Below are positions 52,511 to 61,776 of a DNA stretch of 64,000 bases, one piece after another. The DNA lies in the NCBI GenBank assembly GCA_020846005.1, contig JADLEQ010000022.1:1-64000 (forward strand), in the 5' to 3' direction. A program made the translations under genes and the position numbers. This DNA comes from Polyangiaceae bacterium. GTDB taxonomy: Bacteria; Myxococcota_A; Polyangia; Polyangiales; Polyangiaceae. How positions within the stretch are numbered: position 1 is the first letter of the stretch; each line of letters opens with the position of its first letter. The notes below the pieces were generated by a model. It saw only the letters and a program-made list of their open reading frames with translations. It made no database searches and had not been told where the DNA came from.

Positions 52511-53370
52511 CCCTCCCTCGCGATGAAGTCGGCGAGCCGCTCCCGCTCGGCGCGGTGACGGCTCACCTCACGCGGCCGCGCCGCGCGGAGGTTGCGGCGG
52601 CGGCTCGCCGCGAGGAGACGTCGCGAGGTCCGCTCGGGCAGCGCGCCGAGCAGCGCCCAGCGGGCTAGCGCGCTGCTCGCGCCGACGCGCGCGCGGAGCC
52701 CCCCCGCGTCGCCACGGCGCACCAGCACGCGCGCGACCTCGCGCTGCGTCGCGCGGTGCCGCGCCACGTCGGGCTCGCCCACCCGATACGCGTAGGCCGC
52801 GCCCGGCAGCGTGAGCCACCTCCGATCCTCGACGAGACGCAGCAGGAAGTCGAGGTCCTCCGCGTGGCGAAGCTCCGGAGAGAACCCCGCGCGCACGGCC
52901 TCACCGCGACGGACGACGCACGACGCGAACGGCCACGGCGGCCAGCGCCCGTCGCTCGGGTCGAGCACCCCGAGCACGCGCGCGCCCCGCTCCACGATCG
53001 CCGGCGCGAACACCGCGATCGCCTCGGGCGTCCGCTCGAGCGCCGCGGCGGAGCGCTCCAGCCGGTCGGCGTACATCCAGTCGTCCGAGTCGAGGAAGGC
53101 CACGAGCTCCCCGCGGCAGCGCTCGAGCCCGGCCGCGCGCGCGGCACCGCGCCCGCCATGGCGCTCCAGCGCGTGGACGCGCACGCCGCCGGGGAGCAGC
53201 CGCGCCGCCAGGCCCGCCGTGCCGTCCGACGACGCGTCGTCCACGAGCACGCACTCCCAGTCCCGGAGCGACTGGATCGCGACGGACGCCAGCGCACGTG
53301 GCAGCGTCGACGCGGCGTCGCGCGCGATCATCAGCACCGACACCCGGGGACCCGACACTCGGGCGCTCAC
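52486..53370 (-). CDS. GT2-family glycosyltransferase
   Basis: A 294-residue GT-A fold glycosyltransferase starting at GTG 53370. Motifs are VSVLMIARDAASTLPRALAS, CVLVDDASSDGTAGLA, ELVAFLDSDDWMYADRLE (the DxD-like metal site) and AEDLDFLLRLVEDRRW. No membrane segment is present. It overlaps the O-antigen-ligase-like gene, suggesting both act on the same glycan. It is divergent from the nucleotidyltransferase gene, with only 40 bp between starts. Confidence 0.92.
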   Translation of the reverse strand: MSARVSGPRVSVLMIARDAASTLPRALASVAIQSLRDWECVLVDDASSDGTAGLAARLLPGGVRVHALERHGGRGAARAAGLERCRGELVAFLDSDDWMYADRLERSAAALERTPEAIAVFAPAIVERGARVLGVLDPSDGRWPPWPFASCVVRRGEAVRAGFSPELRHAEDLDFLLRLVEDRRWLTLPGAAYAYRVGEPDVARHRATQREVARVLVRRGDAGGLRARVGASSALARWALLGALPERTSRRLLAASRRRNLRAARPREVSRHRAERERLADFIAREGWPSAGAG

Positions 53371-53410
53371 GTTACCACGCGCCCCTGCCCGCCGTGATAC
53401 GACCCCGGGC

Positions 53411-54307
53411 GTGGTGTCCGAACCCGCCGCGGCGAGCGCCGCGCACAATCTGCGGCTGCTCGCGGAGCTGGGGCTCGTGCTGGACACCCTCGCCACGGCG
53501 CGCGTCCCCGCGATCGTGCTGAAGGGGCTGCCGGATCTCGCGCGCTTCGGCGGCTCGCTCGCCGAGCGGCGGCTGCTCGACAACGACGTGCTGGTGCGCC
53601 GGGCCGACGCCGACGCCGCGACGCGCGCGCTCGAGTCGCTGGGGTACGTCGCGCTCCGCCTCGACGCTCGGCCGACGCACGAGCGCGCCCTCGCGCGCCC
53701 GGACACCGCGGGCGGCCGGCTCGTCTGCGAGCTCCACGAGGAGCCCTTCCCCCCGGAGCCGTTCGACCGCGCGGGCGAGGGTCCGTGGGTGCGCGCGGCC
53801 CGCGTCGAGGCGCACGGTCGGAGCTTCCCGGTGCTCGACCCCGAGTGGACGGTCCTCACGCTCGCGGCACACGCGTGGACGCACGACTTCTCGGAGGCGC
53901 GGACCATCACGGCGCTCGGGCGGGCGTGGCGCGCGCTCGGGCCGCAGCTCGACGCCGGGCGCGTCGCGACCCTGGCGCGCCACCACGGCCTGGCGCGCGT
54001 GCTGGCGCACGGGCTCGCCGCGGCGGGCGTCGCGCCGCCGGCAGAGCTCGCCGCTCGCCCGAGCGGGTGGCCCTGGCTCGCCCCGCGGCGCTTGGGCAGC
54101 GACGCGACCACGGCGCGCGAGCGCTACCTCCGCTGGCTCGGCTCGCTCACGCTCCTCGGCCCGCGCCGCGCGGGGCGGGCGGTGCGTCAGCGCGCCCTGG
54201 CGGGCGACGTCGGCCCGGCGGCGGTCGCCGCCCGGACGGCCGCCGTGCTCCGCCGCCTCGCGCGAGGGAGCGGGGTGGAGCCGCCCGGCGCGGCGCGCCG
54301 CCCGTGA
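53411..54307 (+). CDS. Nucleotidyltransferase (NTP_transf_5 type)
   Basis: A 298-residue protein starting at GTG 53411 or the next codon. AIVLKGLPDLARF, followed by LAERRLLDNDVLVRRAD, fits the NTP_transf_5 family pattern (LKG...R..xDxDLLV), in which the two acidic residues hold the metal. Members occur in RiPP clusters (for example paeninodin-type lasso peptides), next to HprK-related kinases and in exopolysaccharide loci. The reaction is not established. Here it lies about 3 kb from the B2-precursor-radical SAM operon, with the sugar dehydrogenase and ABC transporter between. Confidence 0.8.
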   Translation: MVSEPAAASAAHNLRLLAELGLVLDTLATARVPAIVLKGLPDLARFGGSLAERRLLDNDVLVRRADADAATRALESLGYVALRLDARPTHERALARPDTAGGRLVCELHEEPFPPEPFDRAGEGPWVRAARVEAHGRSFPVLDPEWTVLTLAAHAWTHDFSEARTITALGRAWRALGPQLDAGRVATLARHHGLARVLAHGLAAAGVAPPAELAARPSGWPWLAPRRLGSDATTARERYLRWLGSLTLLGPRRAGRAVRQRALAGDVGPAAVAARTAAVLRRLARGSGVEPPGAARRP

Positions 54308-54357: not shown

Positions 54358-55656
54358 TCACAGCGTGTGCACGTGCGCGCCACGCCCCGCGACGCCGCGG
54401 AGCGCGTCGCGCGTGTCGAGCACGAGCGGCGCCTCGCGCACGAGCCGCTCCCGATCGAGCGCGGTGTGGTCCGTGATGACGATGACGAGATCCCACGGCG
54501 CGAACGACGCCTCGGGGCGCTCGCTCGTCATGCGCACGCCATGCTCGTCGACCTCTGGGACGTGCGGGTCCACGTAGCTCACGGCCGCCCCGCGCTGCTC
54601 GAGGAGCTGGAGGACGTCGAACGCGGGCGATTCGCGCACGTCCGTCACGTCGCGCTTGTACGCGATCCCATAGACGAGGATCCGCGAGCCCTTGACCGGC
54701 TTGCCGGCGTCGTTCAGCGCGGCCGCGGCGCGATCGACCACGTACGCCGGCATGCCGGAGTTGATGGCGTCGGCGAGCTCGATGAACCGCGCTTGCGACT
54801 TCAGCCCGCGCAGCCGCCACGAGAGGTAGAGCGGGTCGATCGGGATGCAGTGGCCGCCGAGCCCGGGCCCGGGATAGAACGGCATGAACCCAAACGGCTT
54901 GGTCGCCGCGGCCCGGATCACCTCGAAGGGATCCACGCCGATCCTGCGGCAGATCTGCGCGACCTCGTTCACGAGGCCGATGTTGACGGCGCGGAACGTG
55001 TTCTCCAGCAGCTTCACCATCTCGGCGGCGTCCGTGGACGACACCGGCACCACGGTCTCGACGATGGGCCCGTAGAGCGCCGCCGCGTGCTCCAGGCACG
55101 CCGGCGTGGCGCCCCCGATCACCTTGGGCGTGTTTCGGATCCCGAAGCGTGCGTTCCCGGGATCGACACGCTCGGGCGAGAACGCGACGAACACGTCGCG
55201 GCCCAGCACGAGCCCGCCCTCGGTGAGCTTCGGCACCATGACCTCGTGGGTCGTGCCCGGGTACGTGGTGCTCTCGAGCACGACGACCATGCCCGGGTGC
55301 AGGTGCCGCACGATCATCCCCACGGCGTCAACGATGAACCGCATGTCCGGGTCGCGGGTCTTGTTGAGCGGCGTCGGGACGCAGACGATGACGGCGTCCG
55401 CTGTGGCGAGCACCGCGGGATCGGTCGACGCCCGGAGCGTGCCCTTCGCGACCGCGGGGGCGAGGGCGCTCGACGGAACGTCTTCGATGTAGGAGCGCCC
55501 CTCCGCGAGCGCGTCCACCTTGCGACGATCGGGATCGAAGCCGGTCACCCGGAACCCCGCCTTCGCCAGCTCGGCGACCAGAGGGAGACCGACGTACCCG
55601 ATGCCCATCACGACGACGTGGGCGGACCTCTGCTGCAGACGTTCGAGTAGGCTCAC
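54358..55656 (-). CDS. Nucleotide-sugar dehydrogenase (WbpA/UDP-sugar type)
   Basis: A 432-residue NAD-dependent dehydrogenase that oxidises the 6-OH of a UDP- or GDP-sugar to the uronic acid. Rossmann motif VVVMGIGYVGLPLVAELAKA opens the protein. VCVPTPLNKTRDPDM, LESTTYPGTT, FSPERVDPGN, EMVKLLENTFRAVNI and GPGLGGHCIPIDPLYLSWR with catalytic Cys270 follow, and then YGIAYKRDVTDVRESPAFDV. The features fit the WbpA/UDP-HexNAc dehydrogenase branch. GTG 55656 is preceded by AAGGAAGG and overlaps the ABC-transporter stop by 4 bp (GTGA), so the two are coupled. Confidence 0.94.
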   Translation of the reverse strand: MSLLERLQQRSAHVVVMGIGYVGLPLVAELAKAGFRVTGFDPDRRKVDALAEGRSYIEDVPSSALAPAVAKGTLRASTDPAVLATADAVIVCVPTPLNKTRDPDMRFIVDAVGMIVRHLHPGMVVVLESTTYPGTTHEVMVPKLTEGGLVLGRDVFVAFSPERVDPGNARFGIRNTPKVIGGATPACLEHAAALYGPIVETVVPVSSTDAAEMVKLLENTFRAVNIGLVNEVAQICRRIGVDPFEVIRAAATKPFGFMPFYPGPGLGGHCIPIDPLYLSWRLRGLKSQARFIELADAINSGMPAYVVDRAAAALNDAGKPVKGSRILVYGIAYKRDVTDVRESPAFDVLQLLEQRGAAVSYVDPHVPEVDEHGVRMTSERPEASFAPWDLVIVITDHTALDRERLVREAPLVLDTRDALRGVAGRGAHVHTL

Positions 55657-57236
55657 GATGACCTTCCTTGCGGTGCTGGGTGGGCTGGCTCGCCCGGCGG
55701 GCCGGCGAGCGCAAGGGTGACGACGCGCACGCCGGCGCCCCGGAACCGATCCGAGTGGGTCGCGACGGCGACTCGCCGCTCGGCGGCGACCTCCACGAGC
55801 AGCGCCACGACCCGACCGGTGGTCTCGGCGTCCAGCGCGGCCTCGGGCTCGTCCAGGACCAGGAACGGGCGCGCCTCCGCGACCAGCGCCGCCAGCAGCG
55901 CCCGCCGGAGCTGCCCGGTCGAGAACGCCTCGACCGGGCGGCCCGGCGCCGCCTCCGCTTCGTCCGGCGCGGCGCCGAGGCGGACCAAGGCGCGACGCAT
56001 CGCGGCCGGATCCGGCTGGATGGCCAGCGCGGCGAGCGCCTCGCCGAGCGAAGCGCGCCGCGGGAGGGATACCTGCTGGGGGAGGTAGGAAACGCCCGCC
56101 CTCCACGCGACGAGATCGAGCTCGCCGAGCGAGCGTCCCCCGACGCTGAGCTCACCGGTGGACGGCGCGACCGCGCCGAGCAGGGCCCTCAGCAGCGTGG
56201 ACTTCCCGGCGCCCGTCGGGCCCCGCACGACCAGCAGCTCCGCCGGCTCCCAGCGCAAGTCGACGGGCGGGAGCGCCTCGACGGCCCCGAGCCGGACGGC
56301 GAGCTGGCGCGCCTCGATCGGCGCGGCGGCCGGCGGGACCGGAGCCCCGCCGCCGCGAGGCAGCCGCGCTCGGTCGACGGCCTCCGCGTGGGCGACGATC
56401 GCGTCGACGCCACGCCTCACCTCGATCGCCCCGCGCGCGGCGTCCGCCGACGCGAGCGCACCGCCCGCGAGGAGCAGCGCGGACGCTGCGTCGTCGAGCG
56501 CGCGCGACAGCACCACCACCCCGACCACCGCCAGCGCGAGCGGCGCGCGCGCCGCAAGCGACGGGAGCGAGTCCGTCCGCGCCGCCACCTCCAGCCAGCG
56601 GCGCGACCGCGCCTGGAGCTCGGCGAGCGCGCCCGCTCCCCGCCCCGACGTCCCGATCAGCTCGGCGGCGGCGGCGAGCGTCGCCGCGCGCCCGGTGAAG
56701 CGCCGGACGGCCTGCTCGGCGTCACGCTCCACGGGCCGTTGGCCTGCCGCCAGCGAGAGCGCGATGACCCCGGCCAGCGCGAGCGCCCCCGCGGCGAGGA
56801 GCGTGGCGCGCCCCGAGCCGACCGCGGCGGCCACCGCCAGGAGCGCGCCCGCCGCGGCGGCACCGCCCGCGCAACCGGTGAGCCCCTCGGACACCGCGAC
56901 CTGCGTCCTACGCGCGTCGTCGAGCTCGCGCTCTACCGCGGCGGGCGGAAGCCCGGCCTCGACCGCGGCCCGGGTCGCCGCGAGGATCAGCTCGGCATAG
57001 AGCACGCGGGCGAGGCGAGCGCGCCCGCGCCCCCCCAACACGGCCACGGTGGCGAGCCCGGCCGCCGCCCCGAGCGCGAGCGCCGGATCGGCCTGGACGG
57101 CGCCGATCCCAGCCGCGACCAACAGCCCCCGCTCGAGCGCGCGGGCACCGCTCGCGAGCGTGAGCGCGCCCGCGCGCGGCGCGGCGACGCGCCGGAGTGC
57201 GGCGGCGGGCGTCATGGCTCGGGTTGCGGTGCCCAT
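55653..57236 (-). CDS. Fused ABC transporter (CydC/D-like layout)
   Basis: A 527-residue half transporter with a membrane domain (residues about 30-300, several hydrophobic segments such as LLAAGALALAGVIALSLAA) fused to an ATPase. ATPase motifs are VVRGPTGAGKSTLLRALLG (Walker A), VSYLPQQVSLP (Q-loop), FSTGQLRRALLAALV (a degenerate LSGGQ, reading FSTGQ), FLVLDEPEAALDAETTG (Walker B) and ATHSDR (H-loop). It looks like a type IV/CydCD-like exporter that would act as a homodimer. It lies divergently 30 bp from the B2 gene and may export the RiPP product or a glycan precursor. Confidence 0.88.
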   Translation of the reverse strand: MGTATRAMTPAAALRRVAAPRAGALTLASGARALERGLLVAAGIGAVQADPALALGAAAGLATVAVLGGRGRARLARVLYAELILAATRAAVEAGLPPAAVERELDDARRTQVAVSEGLTGCAGGAAAAGALLAVAAAVGSGRATLLAAGALALAGVIALSLAAGQRPVERDAEQAVRRFTGRAATLAAAAELIGTSGRGAGALAELQARSRRWLEVAARTDSLPSLAARAPLALAVVGVVVLSRALDDAASALLLAGGALASADAARGAIEVRRGVDAIVAHAEAVDRARLPRGGGAPVPPAAAPIEARQLAVRLGAVEALPPVDLRWEPAELLVVRGPTGAGKSTLLRALLGAVAPSTGELSVGGRSLGELDLVAWRAGVSYLPQQVSLPRRASLGEALAALAIQPDPAAMRRALVRLGAAPDEAEAAPGRPVEAFSTGQLRRALLAALVAEARPFLVLDEPEAALDAETTGRVVALLVEVAAERRVAVATHSDRFRGAGVRVVTLALAGPPGEPAHPAPQGRSS

Positions 57237-57266: not shown

Positions 57267-57689
57267 GTGGCGTCCCCTACCCCGACTCGACGAGCGCGGC
57301 GCGCCCTGGCGCTGGCCGAGTACGTCGCGCTCCGCGCCACCATCGCCGCACGCTACCGCGCCCGCCCGCTCGACACGCTCGTACGGGCCCTGGGCCGGCG
57401 TCGAACGCGCGCCCCCCTCCCGGCAACCGAGCTAGCCGAGGTGGTCCGGCAGGCGGACCGCCTGATCTCCCGGCTCCGCGTCGTGCCCGACACCTGCCTC
57501 TTTCGTTCGCTCGCGCGGTTCGGGCTCGCGGCGCGCTGGCTGGGCCACGGGCCGGCGGTCGTCTTCCGTATGGGGCTGCCGGCCTCCGGCTCGGGCCCCG
57601 GCCACGCGTGGCTCACGCTGGACGGAGCGGCCTGGCTCGAGCCGACACCCGCCGAGATGCTGGAGACCTTCACCTGCAGCCTGGAGTGA
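57267..57689 (+). CDS. Lasso-B2-type transglutaminase-like peptidase
   Basis: A 140-residue protein of the Transglut_core3 / lasso peptide B2 family, leader peptidases of RiPP clusters. The N-terminal helical part is ALALAEYVALRATIAARYRA. The catalytic region shows Cys77 in VPDTCLFRSLARFGLAARWL, His113 in GPGHAWLTLDG and a following Asp. GTG 57267 is the only start that gives the usual length. The precursor-like gene starts 3 bp after its stop. In known systems B2 cuts the leader after it has been delivered by a PqqD-like recognition domain; that domain is encoded three genes further on. Confidence 0.9.
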   Translation: MASPTPTRRARRALALAEYVALRATIAARYRARPLDTLVRALGRRRTRAPLPATELAEVVRQADRLISRLRVVPDTCLFRSLARFGLAARWLGHGPAVVFRMGLPASGSGPGHAWLTLDGAAWLEPTPAEMLETFTCSLE

Positions 57690-57692
57690 CCG

Positions 57693-57911
57693 ATGCCCGT
57701 CTTGACAGCCGCCGCCCGTTCCGCCAGAGTCCGCGCGATGTCCGGGGTTTCCTCCGAGGTCCGCGAGCCCACTCCGCACGGGGCGCCCGAGGGCGCCACC
57801 GCGAACCCACGGCGCGCGTACATCGCGCCGCGGACGGCGCTGCGCGGCAGCGTCGAGGCGTCGACGCTGGTGTCGGGCGAGCAGTGCGTCTTCGATCCGC
57901 CCCCTTGCTGA
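57693..57911 (+). CDS. Candidate RiPP precursor peptide
   Basis: A 72-residue peptide in the same strand and register of spacing as the RiPP genes: GGAG 7 nt before ATG 57693, 3 bp after the B2 stop. Residues 43-58 show the spacing of lasso leaders: Tyr43, Pro46, Gly52, Val54, Thr58 (YxxP, G at +9, T at +15). Known lasso leaders have Leu at +5, here Thr48. By analogy cleavage would fall after Leu59, leaving a 13-residue core VSGEQCVFDPPPC with Cys65, Asp68 and C-terminal Cys72. A second Met at residue 16 would give a 57-residue peptide. It has no similarity to the neighbours and no stop-codon problems. The role as precursor is inferred from position, size and motif. Confidence 0.72.
   Translation: MPVLTAAARSARVRAMSGVSSEVREPTPHGAPEGATANPRRAYIAPRTALRGSVEASTLVSGEQCVFDPPPC
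57702..57730 (+). promoter_or_regulatory. Candidate internal promoter in the precursor gene
   Basis: TTGACA (57702-57707), 17-bp spacer and CAGAGT (57725-57730). The -35 is a perfect match, rare in this GC-rich sequence; the -10 is weak. If used, transcription would begin near the second Met codon at 57738 and boost the downstream genes. Confidence 0.2.
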
Positions 57912-57948
57912 GGGCGCTCGCGAGCGCGCAGCCGGCCCGGCCCGATCG

Positions 57949-59127
57949 ATGCGACCGGGAGCGACCGATCGATCGACGGCCCGCTTGCCGGAGCGTCGCG
58001 TGACCCAGATCGGCGGGCGAGGGGGCGGCGCGGCTCGCGTCGAGGATCGTGCGCCCCGGCTAGGGGTCCACGTCACGGACCGCTGCCAGCTCGACTGCCA
58101 GCACTGCCTCAGGGATCCGGGCCAGAAGCCGCGGGATCTCGATCCGGGGCTGTTCGCCCGCGTGCTGGAGCAGGCGAGCCGCGTGCACGGCCTGAGCCGC
58201 GTGTCGTTCACCGGTGGCGAGCCGCTGCTGCACCCCCACTTCGACGCCCTCGTCGACGCGGTGATCTCGCGCGGGGGCTCGGTCGACTGGGTCAGCAACG
58301 GGCGCTTGGTCCCCGAGCTCCTCCAGCGGTGGGACACGACGCCCTCACGCCAGGCCGCGATCCGATCCCTCTCGCTCAGCCTCGACGCCGCGACGCCGGA
58401 GCTGCACGACGCCCTCCGCGAGCCGGGAAGCCACCGCGACGTGATGCGCGCGGCGGTCGCCTGCGCGGCGCGCGGGGTCCCGTTCGGCGTGCAGATGAGC
58501 GTCCACGCGCGCAACGAAGCCGAGCTCGAGCAGGTCGGGCTGCTCGCGGCATCGCTCGGCGCCAAGCACGTGTCGTTCGCGCTCACTCAGCCGACCGGCA
58601 CGGCGCACGACGCTGCGCTCTACCTGCCCCCCGCGAGGCTCCGCGCGCTCCGGGGGCGGATCGACTCGCTGTCGCGCGCGCTCGCGATCGCCGTCGTGCT
58701 CCCCGAGGGGCACTACGATCCGGCGCGGTTCACCACCTGCGCGCCGCTCCGCGGCGAGACGCTGCACGTCGACGTGGACGGTCGCCTCTCGCTCTGCTGC
58801 CTGCACGCGCAGGTCCCCGGCGCGGAGCCGGGCTCCGACGTGATCGCCGATCTCTCCGAGGTGACGCTCGAAGAGGCGCACGCCCGCTTCCTCGAGCGCG
58901 CCGCCGCGATCCAGCGCGAGCGGCTGATCCGGCTCGCCGCGAGCGCCGACTCGGTCTGGGATCACTTCGGGTGCAACGCCTGCCTGGCCGCGTTCGGCCG
59001 CCCGCACTGGGTCGACGGTGGCGCCGCCGGCGCGAGCGCTCGCCGCGAGCGGTGGCAGGGCGCGTGGGCGGCGGGCCCGCAGCGCCACGCTGCGCTCCCC
59101 AGCCGCCGGCTCCCGGTGGCGACTTGA
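57949..59127 (+). CDS. Radical SAM enzyme with SPASM/twitch-like C-terminus
   Basis: A 392-residue radical SAM protein. The CX3CX2C site is Cys46, Cys50, Cys53 in VTDRCQLDCQHCLRD, with the SAM-binding GGEP in VSFTGGEPLLHPH. The barrel continues with SLSLDAATPELHDALRE and VPFGVQMSVHARN. Five more cysteines lie towards the C-terminus: Cys264 in FTTCAPLRG, Cys283-Cys284 in LSLCCLHAQ, Cys342 and Cys345 in FGCNACLAAFGRP, which fit an auxiliary Fe-S cluster of the SPASM or twitch type used by RiPP-modifying enzymes. It should modify the precursor (for example C-C or thioether bond formation), but the reaction is not predictable. ATG 57949 gives a 30-residue flexible N-terminus; GTG 58000 is an alternative. 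It overlaps the PqqD-like start by 4 bp. Confidence 0.93.
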   Translation: MRPGATDRSTARLPERRVTQIGGRGGGAARVEDRAPRLGVHVTDRCQLDCQHCLRDPGQKPRDLDPGLFARVLEQASRVHGLSRVSFTGGEPLLHPHFDALVDAVISRGGSVDWVSNGRLVPELLQRWDTTPSRQAAIRSLSLSLDAATPELHDALREPGSHRDVMRAAVACAARGVPFGVQMSVHARNEAELEQVGLLAASLGAKHVSFALTQPTGTAHDAALYLPPARLRALRGRIDSLSRALAIAVVLPEGHYDPARFTTCAPLRGETLHVDVDGRLSLCCLHAQVPGAEPGSDVIADLSEVTLEEAHARFLERAAAIQRERLIRLAASADSVWDHFGCNACLAAFGRPHWVDGGAAGASARRERWQGAWAAGPQRHAALPSRRLPVAT

Positions 59128-59393
59128 GCCGCTGGTCCGTCGCGCCGGACACCGTCCACACCGATCTGCCGGACGGCAGCGTCGTGGTCCTCGCGCTCGG
59201 CTCCAAGCAGTACCATACGCTGAACGAGTCGGCAGCGCTCGTCTGGCGGGCGCTCGCGGTACAGCCACGTGAGACGCGCGAGCTCGTCGAGCTCCTCGTC
59301 ACCGAGTACGAGGTCGAGCCCGAGACCGCGCGCGCCGATCTCGAGCGCGTGCTCGAGTCGTGGCTCGGGGACGGCCTCGCGCGACACCCATGA
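59124..59393 (+). CDS. PqqD-like RiPP recognition protein
   Basis: An 89-residue stand-alone PqqD-family protein, the kind that binds RiPP leader peptides (RRE). The pattern DGSVVVLALGSKQYHTLNES, ALVWRALAVQPRETRELVEL and YEVEPETARADLERVLESW is typical. The start is TTG 59124, overlapping the radical SAM stop (TTGA). In lasso systems the equivalent domain reads the YxxP leader motif, which the precursor here carries. Its stop overlaps the HprK-like start (ATGA). Confidence 0.88.
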   Translation: MSRWSVAPDTVHTDLPDGSVVVLALGSKQYHTLNESAALVWRALAVQPRETRELVELLVTEYEVEPETARADLERVLESWLGDGLARHP

Positions 59394-60355
59394 GCGAACC
59401 CTCACGCGCGCGCTTCGCCCTGGGGCACGCGACGGTCGAGGTCGTCGCCGGCCGGGGCGCGGCGCACGTGCTCGCGCGCCTCCCGACGCCGCCGCCGACG
59501 GACGGCGCCGTCGACGTCCGCGTGCGTCTCGCCCGCGCGAGGCGCCGACACCCGGGCGGCAGAGCGCGCGATCTCCATTTCGACGAGGTGCGCGGCGGAC
59601 CGTGCGCCGGCGGGCGCTGGCTCGGCGACGGCCGCTCGCTCGTGCGCGTCGGAGGCGCCGGGGTCGTGGCGCTCCTCCACGACGAAACGCCCCCGTGGGT
59701 GGCGGACGGCGTGCTCGTGCTCGCTGGCCTGGCGTTCGCGCTCCGGGCCCTCGGCGTCTTCCATCTGCACGCGGCGTGCCTGCAGGCCGGCCGCGGGACG
59801 GTCGTGCTCGTCCCCGGGGGGTCCGGCGCCGGCAAGACGACGCTCGCGCTGGCGCTCCGCGCGGCCGGTCTCACGCTCGCGAGTGACGACGCGACGTTCG
59901 TCAGCCGTCGGGAGGGGTCGCTCCGCGTGAGCGGGTGGCCGCGCGCGCCGCACCTCGGCGCGGCGACCTGGGGCGCGTTCCGCCACACGCTCGCGCCGCT
60001 CGGCGACGTGCAAGACGGCCCGCGCCCGAAGCGCGCGGTCGCGTTCCCCGGACCCGCGCTCGGCGCGCTCGCGCCGGCGCGCGTCGCGCTGCTGTTCCCG
60101 ACCCTCGCCGAGGGCCAGACGTCCGCGCGCGTCTGCTCGGCCGAGGACACCCTGCTGGCGCTCCTCGAGCCCAGCGCCCTGGTCGCCCTGCCGGGCGATC
60201 CGGAGGCGAGCCGCGCGCACCTCGCGCTGCTGGGGCACCTCGCCGCGACCGCGCGCTCCCACCGGGTGGCGGTCGGGCGCGATCTGCTGGCGGGTCCGGC
60301 GGCGGCCGGCGCCCGTCTCTTGCGCCAGCTCGACCTGGAGCCCGTCTCACCGTGA
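59390..60355 (+). CDS. HprK-like kinase
   Basis: A 321-residue protein related to the C-terminal kinase domain of HPr kinase/phosphatase. FHLHAACLQAGRGTVVLVPG leads into the P-loop GGSGAGKTTLALAL near residue 144, and GLTLASDDATFVSRREG carries the acidic pair typical of the family. Related kinases phosphorylate the C-terminal Ser of paeninodin-type lasso peptides; here the predicted core ends in Cys and contains a single Ser61, so the substrate is uncertain. The N-terminal 130 residues form a less conserved alpha/beta region. It is linked by 4-bp overlaps on both sides. Confidence 0.87.
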   Translation: MSEPSRARFALGHATVEVVAGRGAAHVLARLPTPPPTDGAVDVRVRLARARRRHPGGRARDLHFDEVRGGPCAGGRWLGDGRSLVRVGGAGVVALLHDETPPWVADGVLVLAGLAFALRALGVFHLHAACLQAGRGTVVLVPGGSGAGKTTLALALRAAGLTLASDDATFVSRREGSLRVSGWPRAPHLGAATWGAFRHTLAPLGDVQDGPRPKRAVAFPGPALGALAPARVALLFPTLAEGQTSARVCSAEDTLLALLEPSALVALPGDPEASRAHLALLGHLAATARSHRVAVGRDLLAGPAAAGARLLRQLDLEPVSP

Positions 60356-61776
60356 CGGACGCCCACGGCGCCGCACGCCGAGCTCGCGCCGCGGCGCTCG
60401 TCGGCGCGCTCTGCGTCGGCGCGTGCGCGCGTACGGGGGCGTCCGACGCGCCGCCCAGCCCGTGCGCGGCGGCGAGCGTCGTCGCCGCTACCCCGCGCGC
60501 CGCCGCCTCGTCGCTGGCGACGAGCGCGCCGGTCGCGGCGGGCCCGACGGGGAGCGCCGCCGCGGGGCGGACGGCACGCCACCTGTTGCTCATCACCGTC
60601 GACTCACTCCGCGCGGATATGCCTTGGGTCGGCTACGGGCGCCCCATCGCGCCGCGGATGACGGCGCTCGCTCGGCAGAGCGTCGTCTACACGCACGCCT
60701 ACGCGCTCTCGAGCTACACCTCGATGTCGCTCGGCGGGCTGATGGCGGCCCGACATCCGTCGGAGCTCGAGCGGGACGGCCGCGCGACGAGCAGCTTCGG
60801 CGAGGCGAACGTCTTCTTCGCCGAGGTCCTCCGGGCGCAGGGCTTCCGCACCGTGGGCGCGCACGGGCACGTCTACTTCGCGGGCAACACCGGGATCCGG
60901 CAGGGGTTCGAGGCGTGGCGGCTCGTGCGGCGCGTCACCTCGCGGCGGGCGCGCGAGGGCGCCGTCACCGACGACGAGCTCGCCGAGCTCGTGATCGAGG
61001 AGCTCACCACGCACGCGCGCGATCCCGCCGCGCGGCGGCTCTTCCTCTGGGTGCACTTCATGGACCCGCACTTCGACTACGTGCCGCACCGCGAGGTGCG
61101 GCTCGACGCGCCCGCCGCGCCGCCGGTCCCCCCGGGGATCGAGCTCGACGCGACGGGAGCCGCCCTGAAACGCCGCTGGGAGACCGAGATCGCGTTCACG
61201 GACCGCCAGGTGGGGCGCGTGCTGGACACCCTGGCCGCGTCTCCCCTCCGGGACGACACCCTGGTCGTGCTCACCGCAGACCATGGCGAGGCGTTCGGGG
61301 AGAAGCCCCGATACTTCGAGCACGGCTTCCTCCTCTACGAGGTGACGGTCCGCGTCCCGCTGCTGTTCCATGCGCCTTGGCTCGCGCCGCGGACGCTCGC
61401 GGCCCGCCGGAGCCACCTCGATCTCGCGCGGACGCTGGCGGAGCTCCTCGGCGTCCCGCTGCCGGAGACGTTCCGCGGAGCGAGCCTGGTGCCCGAGCTC
61501 CGCGGCGAGGTCGTACCGCCGCGCGACGTGGTGATCGACATGCCCTACACCGACCAGTCCCCGCGCCGGCGCGCGCTCGTCCGCGGCGACTCCAAGCTCA
61601 TCGTCACCGAGTCGAGCCCTCGCCCGGAGCTCTACGACCTCGCCCGCGATGCCACGGAGCGCACCGACCTCGCCGAGCAGGACGCCGAGACGCGCGCCCG
61701 GCTCCAGGCGGCGCTCGACGCGCTCGACCGCGCCGTGCCCGACTACCCCGCCCCGCGCCGCAAGCGCGGCTACTGA
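60352..61776 (+). CDS. Sulfatase-fold lipoprotein (alkaline-phosphatase superfamily)
   Basis: A 474-residue predicted lipoprotein starting at GTG 60352 with lipobox VGAC (Cys25) and an Ala/Ser/Pro linker. The catalytic domain has LLLITVDSLRADMP (first metal Asp), a nucleophile region ALSSYTSMSLGGLMAARHPS with Thr123/Ser124 where sulfatases have Cys or Ser in CxPxR, FMDPHFDYVPH and VVLTADHGEAFGE (metal Asp-His). Lack of CxPxR points to a phosphatase/phosphotransferase-like rather than a classical sulfatase activity. It is the last gene of the RiPP operon (GTGA overlap). Its stop overlaps the convergent oxidoreductase by 7 bp. Confidence 0.88.
   Translation: MTDAHGAARRARAAALVGALCVGACARTGASDAPPSPCAAASVVAATPRAAASSLATSAPVAAGPTGSAAAGRTARHLLLITVDSLRADMPWVGYGRPIAPRMTALARQSVVYTHAYALSSYTSMSLGGLMAARHPSELERDGRATSSFGEANVFFAEVLRAQGFRTVGAHGHVYFAGNTGIRQGFEAWRLVRRVTSRRAREGAVTDDELAELVIEELTTHARDPAARRLFLWVHFMDPHFDYVPHREVRLDAPAAPPVPPGIELDATGAALKRRWETEIAFTDRQVGRVLDTLAASPLRDDTLVVLTADHGEAFGEKPRYFEHGFLLYEVTVRVPLLFHAPWLAPRTLAARRSHLDLARTLAELLGVPLPETFRGASLVPELRGEVVPPRDVVIDMPYTDQSPRRRALVRGDSKLIVTESSPRPELYDLARDATERTDLAEQDAETRARLQAALDALDRAVPDYPAPRRKRGY

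Follow-up and report, generated by a model that had tools for sequence, protein, structure and literature searches.

What product does a set of lasso-peptide maturation genes make when a radical S-adenosylmethionine (SAM) enzyme stands where the cyclase would be expected? The question is raised by a cassette of five genes in a 64-kb stretch of DNA from a Polyangiaceae bacterium (contig JADLEQ010000022.1), referred to below, at its full length, as the window. At positions 57267-60355 of the plus strand, genes for a B2 peptidase, a small precursor peptide, a radical SAM enzyme (rSAM), a PqqD protein and an HprK-like kinase follow one another in that order, with a gap of 3 bp between the B2 and precursor genes, a gap of 37 bp between the precursor and rSAM genes, and overlaps of 4 bp at both the rSAM/PqqD and the PqqD/HprK-like junctions. 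The evidence argues strongly that these genes encode a pathway for a ribosomally synthesized and post-translationally modified peptide (RiPP), built on the chassis of lasso peptides, in which the rSAM stands in for the lasso cyclase. The elements of the cassette are as follows.

57267-57689, plus strand: B2-type leader peptidase (Transglut_core3, C96-like cysteine peptidase); PF13471, 32.6 bits against a cut-off of 26
57693-57911, plus strand: precursor peptide, 72 amino acids; an alternative start at 57738 gives 57 amino acids, nearer the length of the relatives; family alignment of 20
57819-57869, plus strand: leader motif YIAPRTALRGSVEASTL (Y0, P3, G9, T15, L16), the predicted cleavage region and binding region for the RiPP recognition element (RRE), with the lasso-leader spacing YxxPxL...T(-2)
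57870-57908, plus strand: predicted core VSGEQCVFDPPPC, assuming that the T(-2) rule places the cut after L16; its Ser at Tyr+18 is the predicted phosphorylation site
57949-59127, plus strand: radical SAM enzyme with a C-terminal Twitch/SPASM-like auxiliary-cluster motif (C-x13-G-x4-CC ... C-x2-C); PF04055, 70.4 bits
59124-59393, plus strand: stand-alone PqqD-type RRE; PF05402, 61.6 bits
59390-60355, plus strand: HprK-like peptide kinase; HprK_rel_A/B, E ~1e-7, well under the cut-offs

The initial annotation of this DNA had proposed five genes in one direction with these spacings, had assigned them to the B2, radical SAM, PqqD and HprK-like families, and had pointed to extra cysteines in the rSAM. 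The coordinates agree, PF13471, PF04055, PF05402 and HprK-related models match, and the additional cysteines are real and invariant among relatives.

Precursor family and conserved gene set

The domain search returned no family match for the precursor peptide. The leader pattern YxxPx[LIV]x9[T/A/V]L occurs a single time in the six frames of the window, at the precursor, and lies upstream of the rSAM in 11 of 11 relative loci; its placement is therefore not a matter of chance. When those 11 loci were divided into 3,496 sliding 400-bp windows, only 33 contained the pattern, approximately the number expected from windows that overlap the 11 precursors. Every one of the 25 Polyangiales copies uncut by a contig end has a short open reading frame (ORF) with the pattern immediately upstream of its rSAM, so that the small peptide singled out by the initial annotation is conserved at this position; in a second family outside Polyangiales (f37; loci L060 and L061), the precursor lies about 2 kb upstream.

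Among 15 non-redundant precursors, aligned without gaps over 21 leader columns, Tyr0, Pro3 and Leu16 are invariant, an aliphatic residue (L/I/V) occupies position 5 in 14 and threonine occupies position 15 in 11. Codon changes in six close pairs of precursors are predominantly silent (28 synonymous against 4 non-synonymous), and the substitution pattern indicates that the reading frame is under purifying selection; the more diverged comparison of the window precursor with its nearest kin gives 12 synonymous and 13 non-synonymous changes over 34 codons. The precursor profile has one strong match in the window's own genome, the window peptide itself (1.6e-14). Within the core, only positions 1-3 (hydrophobic, Ser/Thr, small) are conserved: Ser or Thr stands at position 2, which corresponds to Tyr+18, in 22 of 23 cores, and a small residue follows at position 3 in all 23. 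Tryptophan, tyrosine, histidine, lysine and arginine are absent from the 23 cores, and cysteine is present only in those of the window and its closest relative.

Relatives of the rSAM, gathered by whole-genome search together with named records, come from Polyangium, Minicystis, Byssovorax and several metagenome-assembled genomes; at least 25 related genomes conserve the cassette. In 21 distinct Myxococcota loci, the rSAM, B2, PqqD and HprK profiles all match within about 6 kb, the genes being arranged in several orders. The rSAM adjoins the precursor in every Polyangiales locus, and the kinase can be kilobases off. A single pattern scan across 84,980 genomes, the sole probe of occurrence beyond Myxococcota, yielded no records besides those of Myxococcota or 'Deltaproteobacteria'.

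Several loci depart from this arrangement. At L113 (G090:C268, 5819-8267), HprK-like and PqqD genes are followed by a different rSAM (CNLDCTFC) and then by a short ORF ending ...RRPYQPPQVLFREPLEAVATVCTNGKSPAQPIGNCAVIPSS; here a similar RRE-kinase pair is accompanied by a second rSAM of divergent sequence. L063 (G201:C627, 186-2796) carries an HprK-like kinase, a distant member of the rSAM family and PqqD, with no B2 on the stretch; its upstream ORF closes with FVRPKLIKRGDARQVTAGFFGTFYP, in which a leader of lasso spacing is joined to an aromatic core. At L103 (G165:C35, 3084-4170), an HprK of the rSAM-linked clade adjoins a precursor ending YEPPKVTRGRSVQSATLFSPSQH, and no rSAM, B2 or PqqD was detected within 12.5 kb.

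Relation to lasso peptide clusters

The cassette has much in common with lasso peptides that carry an HprK-like kinase (the paeninodin, pseudomycoidin and Bsf types), namely the leader YxxPx[LIV]...T(-2), in which Thr(-2) guides cleavage in the lasso precursors (PMC10368454; PMC10885120), a discrete PqqD RRE, the B2 peptidase, the kinase, a nucleotidyltransferase (NTP transferase) and an ATP-binding cassette (ABC) exporter. It differs from them in possessing an rSAM where they have an asparagine-synthetase-like macrolactam cyclase, in cores that generally lack both a G/A/S first residue and D/E at positions 7-9, and in a leader whose Leu16 is invariant and whose positions 7-9 are mostly basic. 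As the initial annotation had it, every paeninodin-type part except the cyclase is present within 7 kb, the ABC exporter and NTP_transf_5 genes both lying upstream of the cassette.

A search for Asn_synthase (PF00733), with genomes containing lasso loci as controls, found none in any cassette among the 31 genomes with the rSAM family, and the claim that no such cyclase is linked in relatives stands. Genome-wide, nothing beyond weak partial matches turned up in the window's closest relative (G059), in Polyangium 15x6 (G064) or in a two-contig Polyangium (G171). Asn_synthase genes situated 9-11 kb (G077, G074; f6) or about 33 kb (G048, G194) away were rejected as linked lasso cyclases, being outside the cassette; the two nearest full proteins, those at 9-11 kb in the f6 genomes, begin MCGI and look like ordinary glutamine-hydrolysing AsnB-type enzymes.

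The precursor profile also matches, more weakly, genomes without this rSAM. In the surrounding regions the leader is built alike (YxxPxLxxLGSVRELTLG) and is mostly accompanied by HprK and PqqD genes. Asn_synthase was detected in nine of these regions by a local profile and in two more by PF00733; the regions with Asn_synthase are canonical lasso loci of sister genomes. Two such lasso loci have two precursors of one leader type each, L100 (G140:C43, 273-425 and 6126-6290) and L114. The lactam acceptor, D/E at core positions 7-9, is present in 13 of 13 lasso-type precursors, two of which (the first copy of L100, and L108) were classed from their sequence alone, as against 2 of 23 of the rSAM type (Fisher p 5e-8), these two being the window (D9) and L012 (E7/D8). 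Likewise, the first core residue is small (G/A/S) in 12/13 lasso-type and 1/23 rSAM-type precursors. In the kinase and PqqD trees, rSAM-linked and lasso-linked members fall on the two sides of one branch, with support of 100/99 in each tree; the B2 tree, in which only three lasso B2s were included, does not separate the groups. The differences between the cores and the split in the kinase and PqqD trees imply that the cassette belongs to a lineage of its own, sharing the lasso chassis, and is no degenerate lasso cluster.

Enzymes, surroundings and predicted chemistry

The CxxxCxxC motif (Cys 46/50/53 in the window) and GGEP are invariant in 21 of 21 rSAMs, as are C264, C283, C284, C342 and C345, arranged as C264-x13-G278-x4-C283, C284, C342-x2-C345. 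This Twitch-like layout of five cysteines falls short of the full SPASM set of seven (CX9-15GX4C...CX2CX5CX3C...C). The AlphaFold2 (AF2) model (predicted local distance difference test, pLDDT, 81) matches best SuiB (Z 24.3), SkfB (23.5), anSMEcpe (22.4) and BlsE (22.2), and the modeled fold is thus nearest to those of RiPP maturases and anSME. With the maturases SuiB, SkfB, CteB, PqqE, anSME and EpeE, the enzyme shares the radical SAM core and a SPASM/Twitch-like C-terminus (fold Z 18-24); it differs from them in its low identity (13-22%), in having five rather than seven C-terminal cysteines, and in acting within a cassette whose cores lack the residues that most of these enzymes cross-link. 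The relatives' rSAMs begin at about window residue 34-38, and translation may actually begin as much as ~100 bp downstream of 57949.

In the B2 peptidase, Cys77 and His113 are invariant in 18 of 18 sequences and the third residue (Asp) varies; neither the B2 nor the rSAM active site is degenerate, an outcome that leaves the reading of the initial annotation standing. The window B2 scores 31.4 bits against NF033537 (lasso_biosyn_B2; cut-off 33), and 18/18 relatives match this model (best 4.8e-20). Its AF2 model has a pLDDT of 93; no solved relative was found by sequence, Foldseek gave no significant match, and the weak VIA-align matches are mostly papain/transglutaminase-like peptidases (Z up to 4.5). 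For PqqD, the best NCBIfam matches are to the two models of lasso PqqD chaperones and do not reach cut-off. In the kinase, His127, Walker-A G148-K149 and Asp166-Asp167 are invariant in 12 of 12 sequences.

By profile, the nearest named set is the SynChlorMet cassette (NCBIfam ScmC/ScmD/ScmE/ScmF), a comparison that leaves the precursor leaders aside. ScmF is the best NCBIfam match of the window rSAM and matches all 21 members (best 3e-28), ScmC and ScmD bear a weak likeness to cassette proteins, and the cut-offs are not reached (ScmF 80 vs 400 bits, ScmE 58 vs 400 bits); unlike SynChlorMet, the cassette includes a B2 peptidase. The cut-offs of the HPr-rel-A system are not attained in the window either (HprK_rel_A 29 vs 200 bits, PqqD_rel_X 23.5 vs 35 bits); for the rSAM, the kinase and PqqD alike, every NCBIfam match lies far below cut-off.

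Two further genes close to the cassette encode probable accessory functions.

55653-57236, minus strand: half-size ABC transporter (permease and ATPase), divergent from B2; PF00005, 76.4 bits
~53219-54307, plus strand: accessory NTP_transf_5 nucleotidyltransferase; PF14907, 95.2 bits; also near the cassettes of L021, L024 and L060

The ABC transporter, a counterpart of which lies near several relatives' cassettes, is likely the exporter. Downstream, a sulfatase-fold gene (60352-61776) overlaps the kinase gene by 4 bp; it was rejected as a member of the system, having no counterpart beside the cassettes of the relatives compared. Its product is lipoprotein-like, translationally coupled to the kinase and, by eye, devoid of the C/S-x-P-x-R formylglycine motif. 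PD40 beta-propeller proteins adjoin the cassettes of the window's closest relative (L014:3194-5299) and of family f37 (L060:10848-12518), and in Polyangium fumosum a methyltransferase-like gene (L016:6767-7621) lies upstream of the precursor, with homologous C-terminal sequence in other Polyangium loci.

We infer the order of the steps, the phosphosite, the cleavage site and export as follows. The PqqD protein would bind the YxxP leader and present the precursor; the rSAM would modify the short S/T/G-rich core, installing the defining modification, most likely at positions 1-3; the HprK-like kinase would phosphorylate the conserved Ser/Thr at Tyr+18; the B2 peptidase would cut near T15-L16, presumably after Leu16 by analogy with lasso leaders; and the ABC transporter would export the product. 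NTP_transf_5 might serve as an additional tailoring enzyme. Action of the kinase on the Tyr+18 residue is likely because phosphoserine occurs at the same offset in the linear polyphosphorylated peptides (LPP) of Bacillota, described in 2026, whose motif YxxPxVLxHQxIxFETxxS places the phosphorylated Ser 18 residues past Tyr (PMC13381572), and because Ser3 of the lasso precursor, which BsfK phosphorylates (PMC10368454), sits one residue beyond that position. The cassette precursors have S/T at Tyr+18 in 22/23 and lack the HQxIxFE part of the LPP motif.

Candidate cross-links were considered and rejected as the general modification: a thioether (sactipeptide or ranthipeptide) because only 2/23 cores contain Cys, and a cyclophane, triceptide or streptide-type link because no core contains W, Y, H, K or R and 9/23 lack both Phe and Cys. 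From core composition, then, neither a thioether nor an aryl cross-link of any known kind can be the general modification. Among known rSAM reactions, non-crosslinking chemistry (epimerization, or oxidation at Ser/Thr or a neighboring carbon) fits best, a proposal to which we give slightly less than even odds of being correct.

Alternative explanations and significance

LPP is the nearest published cyclase-free cousin of the cassette: its loci encode an RRE, an HprK-like kinase, an NTP transferase and an exporter, occur in a polysaccharide-locus setting, and use an SpI-like serine peptidase to cut the leader (PMC13381572). The RRE, kinase, NTP transferase and exporter, the lack of a cyclase, the YxxP leader, the polysaccharide setting and Ser (here Ser/Thr) at an equal offset from Tyr are common to both, and one might regard the cassette as an LPP variant whose principal modification is phosphorylation by the kinase, with B2 standing in for the signal-peptidase-like protease and the rSAM contributing a secondary step. 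We think this unlikely, if worth serious weight: LPP relies on an SpI-like peptidase in Bacillota where the Myxococcota cassette combines a B2 cysteine peptidase with a conserved rSAM, the LPP paper does not mention an rSAM, the word 'radical' being absent from it (PMC13381572), and it is the rSAM, not the kinase, that stays beside the precursor throughout Polyangiales. No SpI-like peptidase was seen among the annotated genes beside the cassette, where no profile search was aimed at SpI. The window locus also contains O-antigen-ligase-like, UDP-sugar dehydrogenase and glycosyltransferase genes, which, with PqqE and mycofactocin maturases among the nearest NCBIfam models of the rSAM, would suit maturation of a cofactor, or of a tag destined for an envelope component or a polysaccharide, as opposed to a free secreted peptide; that the cores vary widely between genera, unlike cofactor precursors, and that the polysaccharide setting is missing in some relatives make this improbable.

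A lasso cluster with its cyclase encoded elsewhere, the rSAM being an added tailoring enzyme, would account for the lasso-type B2, RRE, kinase, leader and exporter, for the two full Asn_synthase genes located elsewhere in the window's genome, and for the acceptor residues of the window and L012 cores. It is nevertheless very improbable, considering that G059, G064 and G171 have only partial Asn_synthase matches, that 21/23 cores lack D/E 7-9 and 22/23 lack a G/A/S first residue, that true lasso clusters of the same order keep the cyclase adjacent, and that in their trees the RRE and the kinase group separately from the lasso-linked ones. The precursor's lack of a family match might suggest a chance neighborhood of unrelated genes around a spurious small ORF, an idea with virtually no probability left, refuted by the way in which gene set, leader and reading frame are conserved and by the substitution pattern.

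Several observations weigh against a RiPP pathway in which the rSAM replaces the lasso cyclase. The product is a prediction from the genes, and the cores diverge so strongly between genera that the modified residue is not readable from conservation. The kinase scores far under every curated cut-off, the B2 model has only weak matches to solved structures (Z 4.5), and LppK rejected Thr at the phosphosite (PMC13381572), whereas Polyangium, Minicystis and Byssovorax carry Thr at Tyr+18. The phrase 'in place of the cyclase' compares two arrangements, to which the unrooted trees give no order in time. Finally, genome G034 has a second rSAM-precursor pair (L071, G034:C63, 5430-6740) with no B2, PqqD or kinase on its 13.5-kb contig. 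The core at L071 is FSGGGSTFF, and a full cassette is present on another contig of G034.

We found no published description of the gene set RRE, B2, HprK and rSAM in the open-access literature, in keeping with the initial annotation, to which no described family with exactly this set was known. RRE-Finder recorded ~300 lasso-type RREs beside rSAM genes and noted them as false positives of the lasso model (PMC7470986); these co-occurrences were not described as a system, and no B2, kinase or precursor family was reported for them. The cassette is a source of false positives in lasso genome mining. It also suggests that the lasso leader, RRE, protease and kinase constitute a module able to carry another core-modifying enzyme, and such swaps are directly testable; cultured, sequenced strains such as Polyangium fumosum and Minicystis rosea offer ready targets. 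Because residues on which known rSAM cross-linking maturases act are absent from the cores, the rSAM chemistry may be new. We put forward, more as a possibility than as an expectation, a new RiPP class that combines an undescribed rSAM reaction on an aliphatic Ser/Thr-Gly-rich core with phosphorylation of the adjacent Ser/Thr, on the leader, protease, RRE and kinase chassis shared with lasso peptides. If so, one chassis would serve lasso, linear-phosphorylated and radical-modified products.

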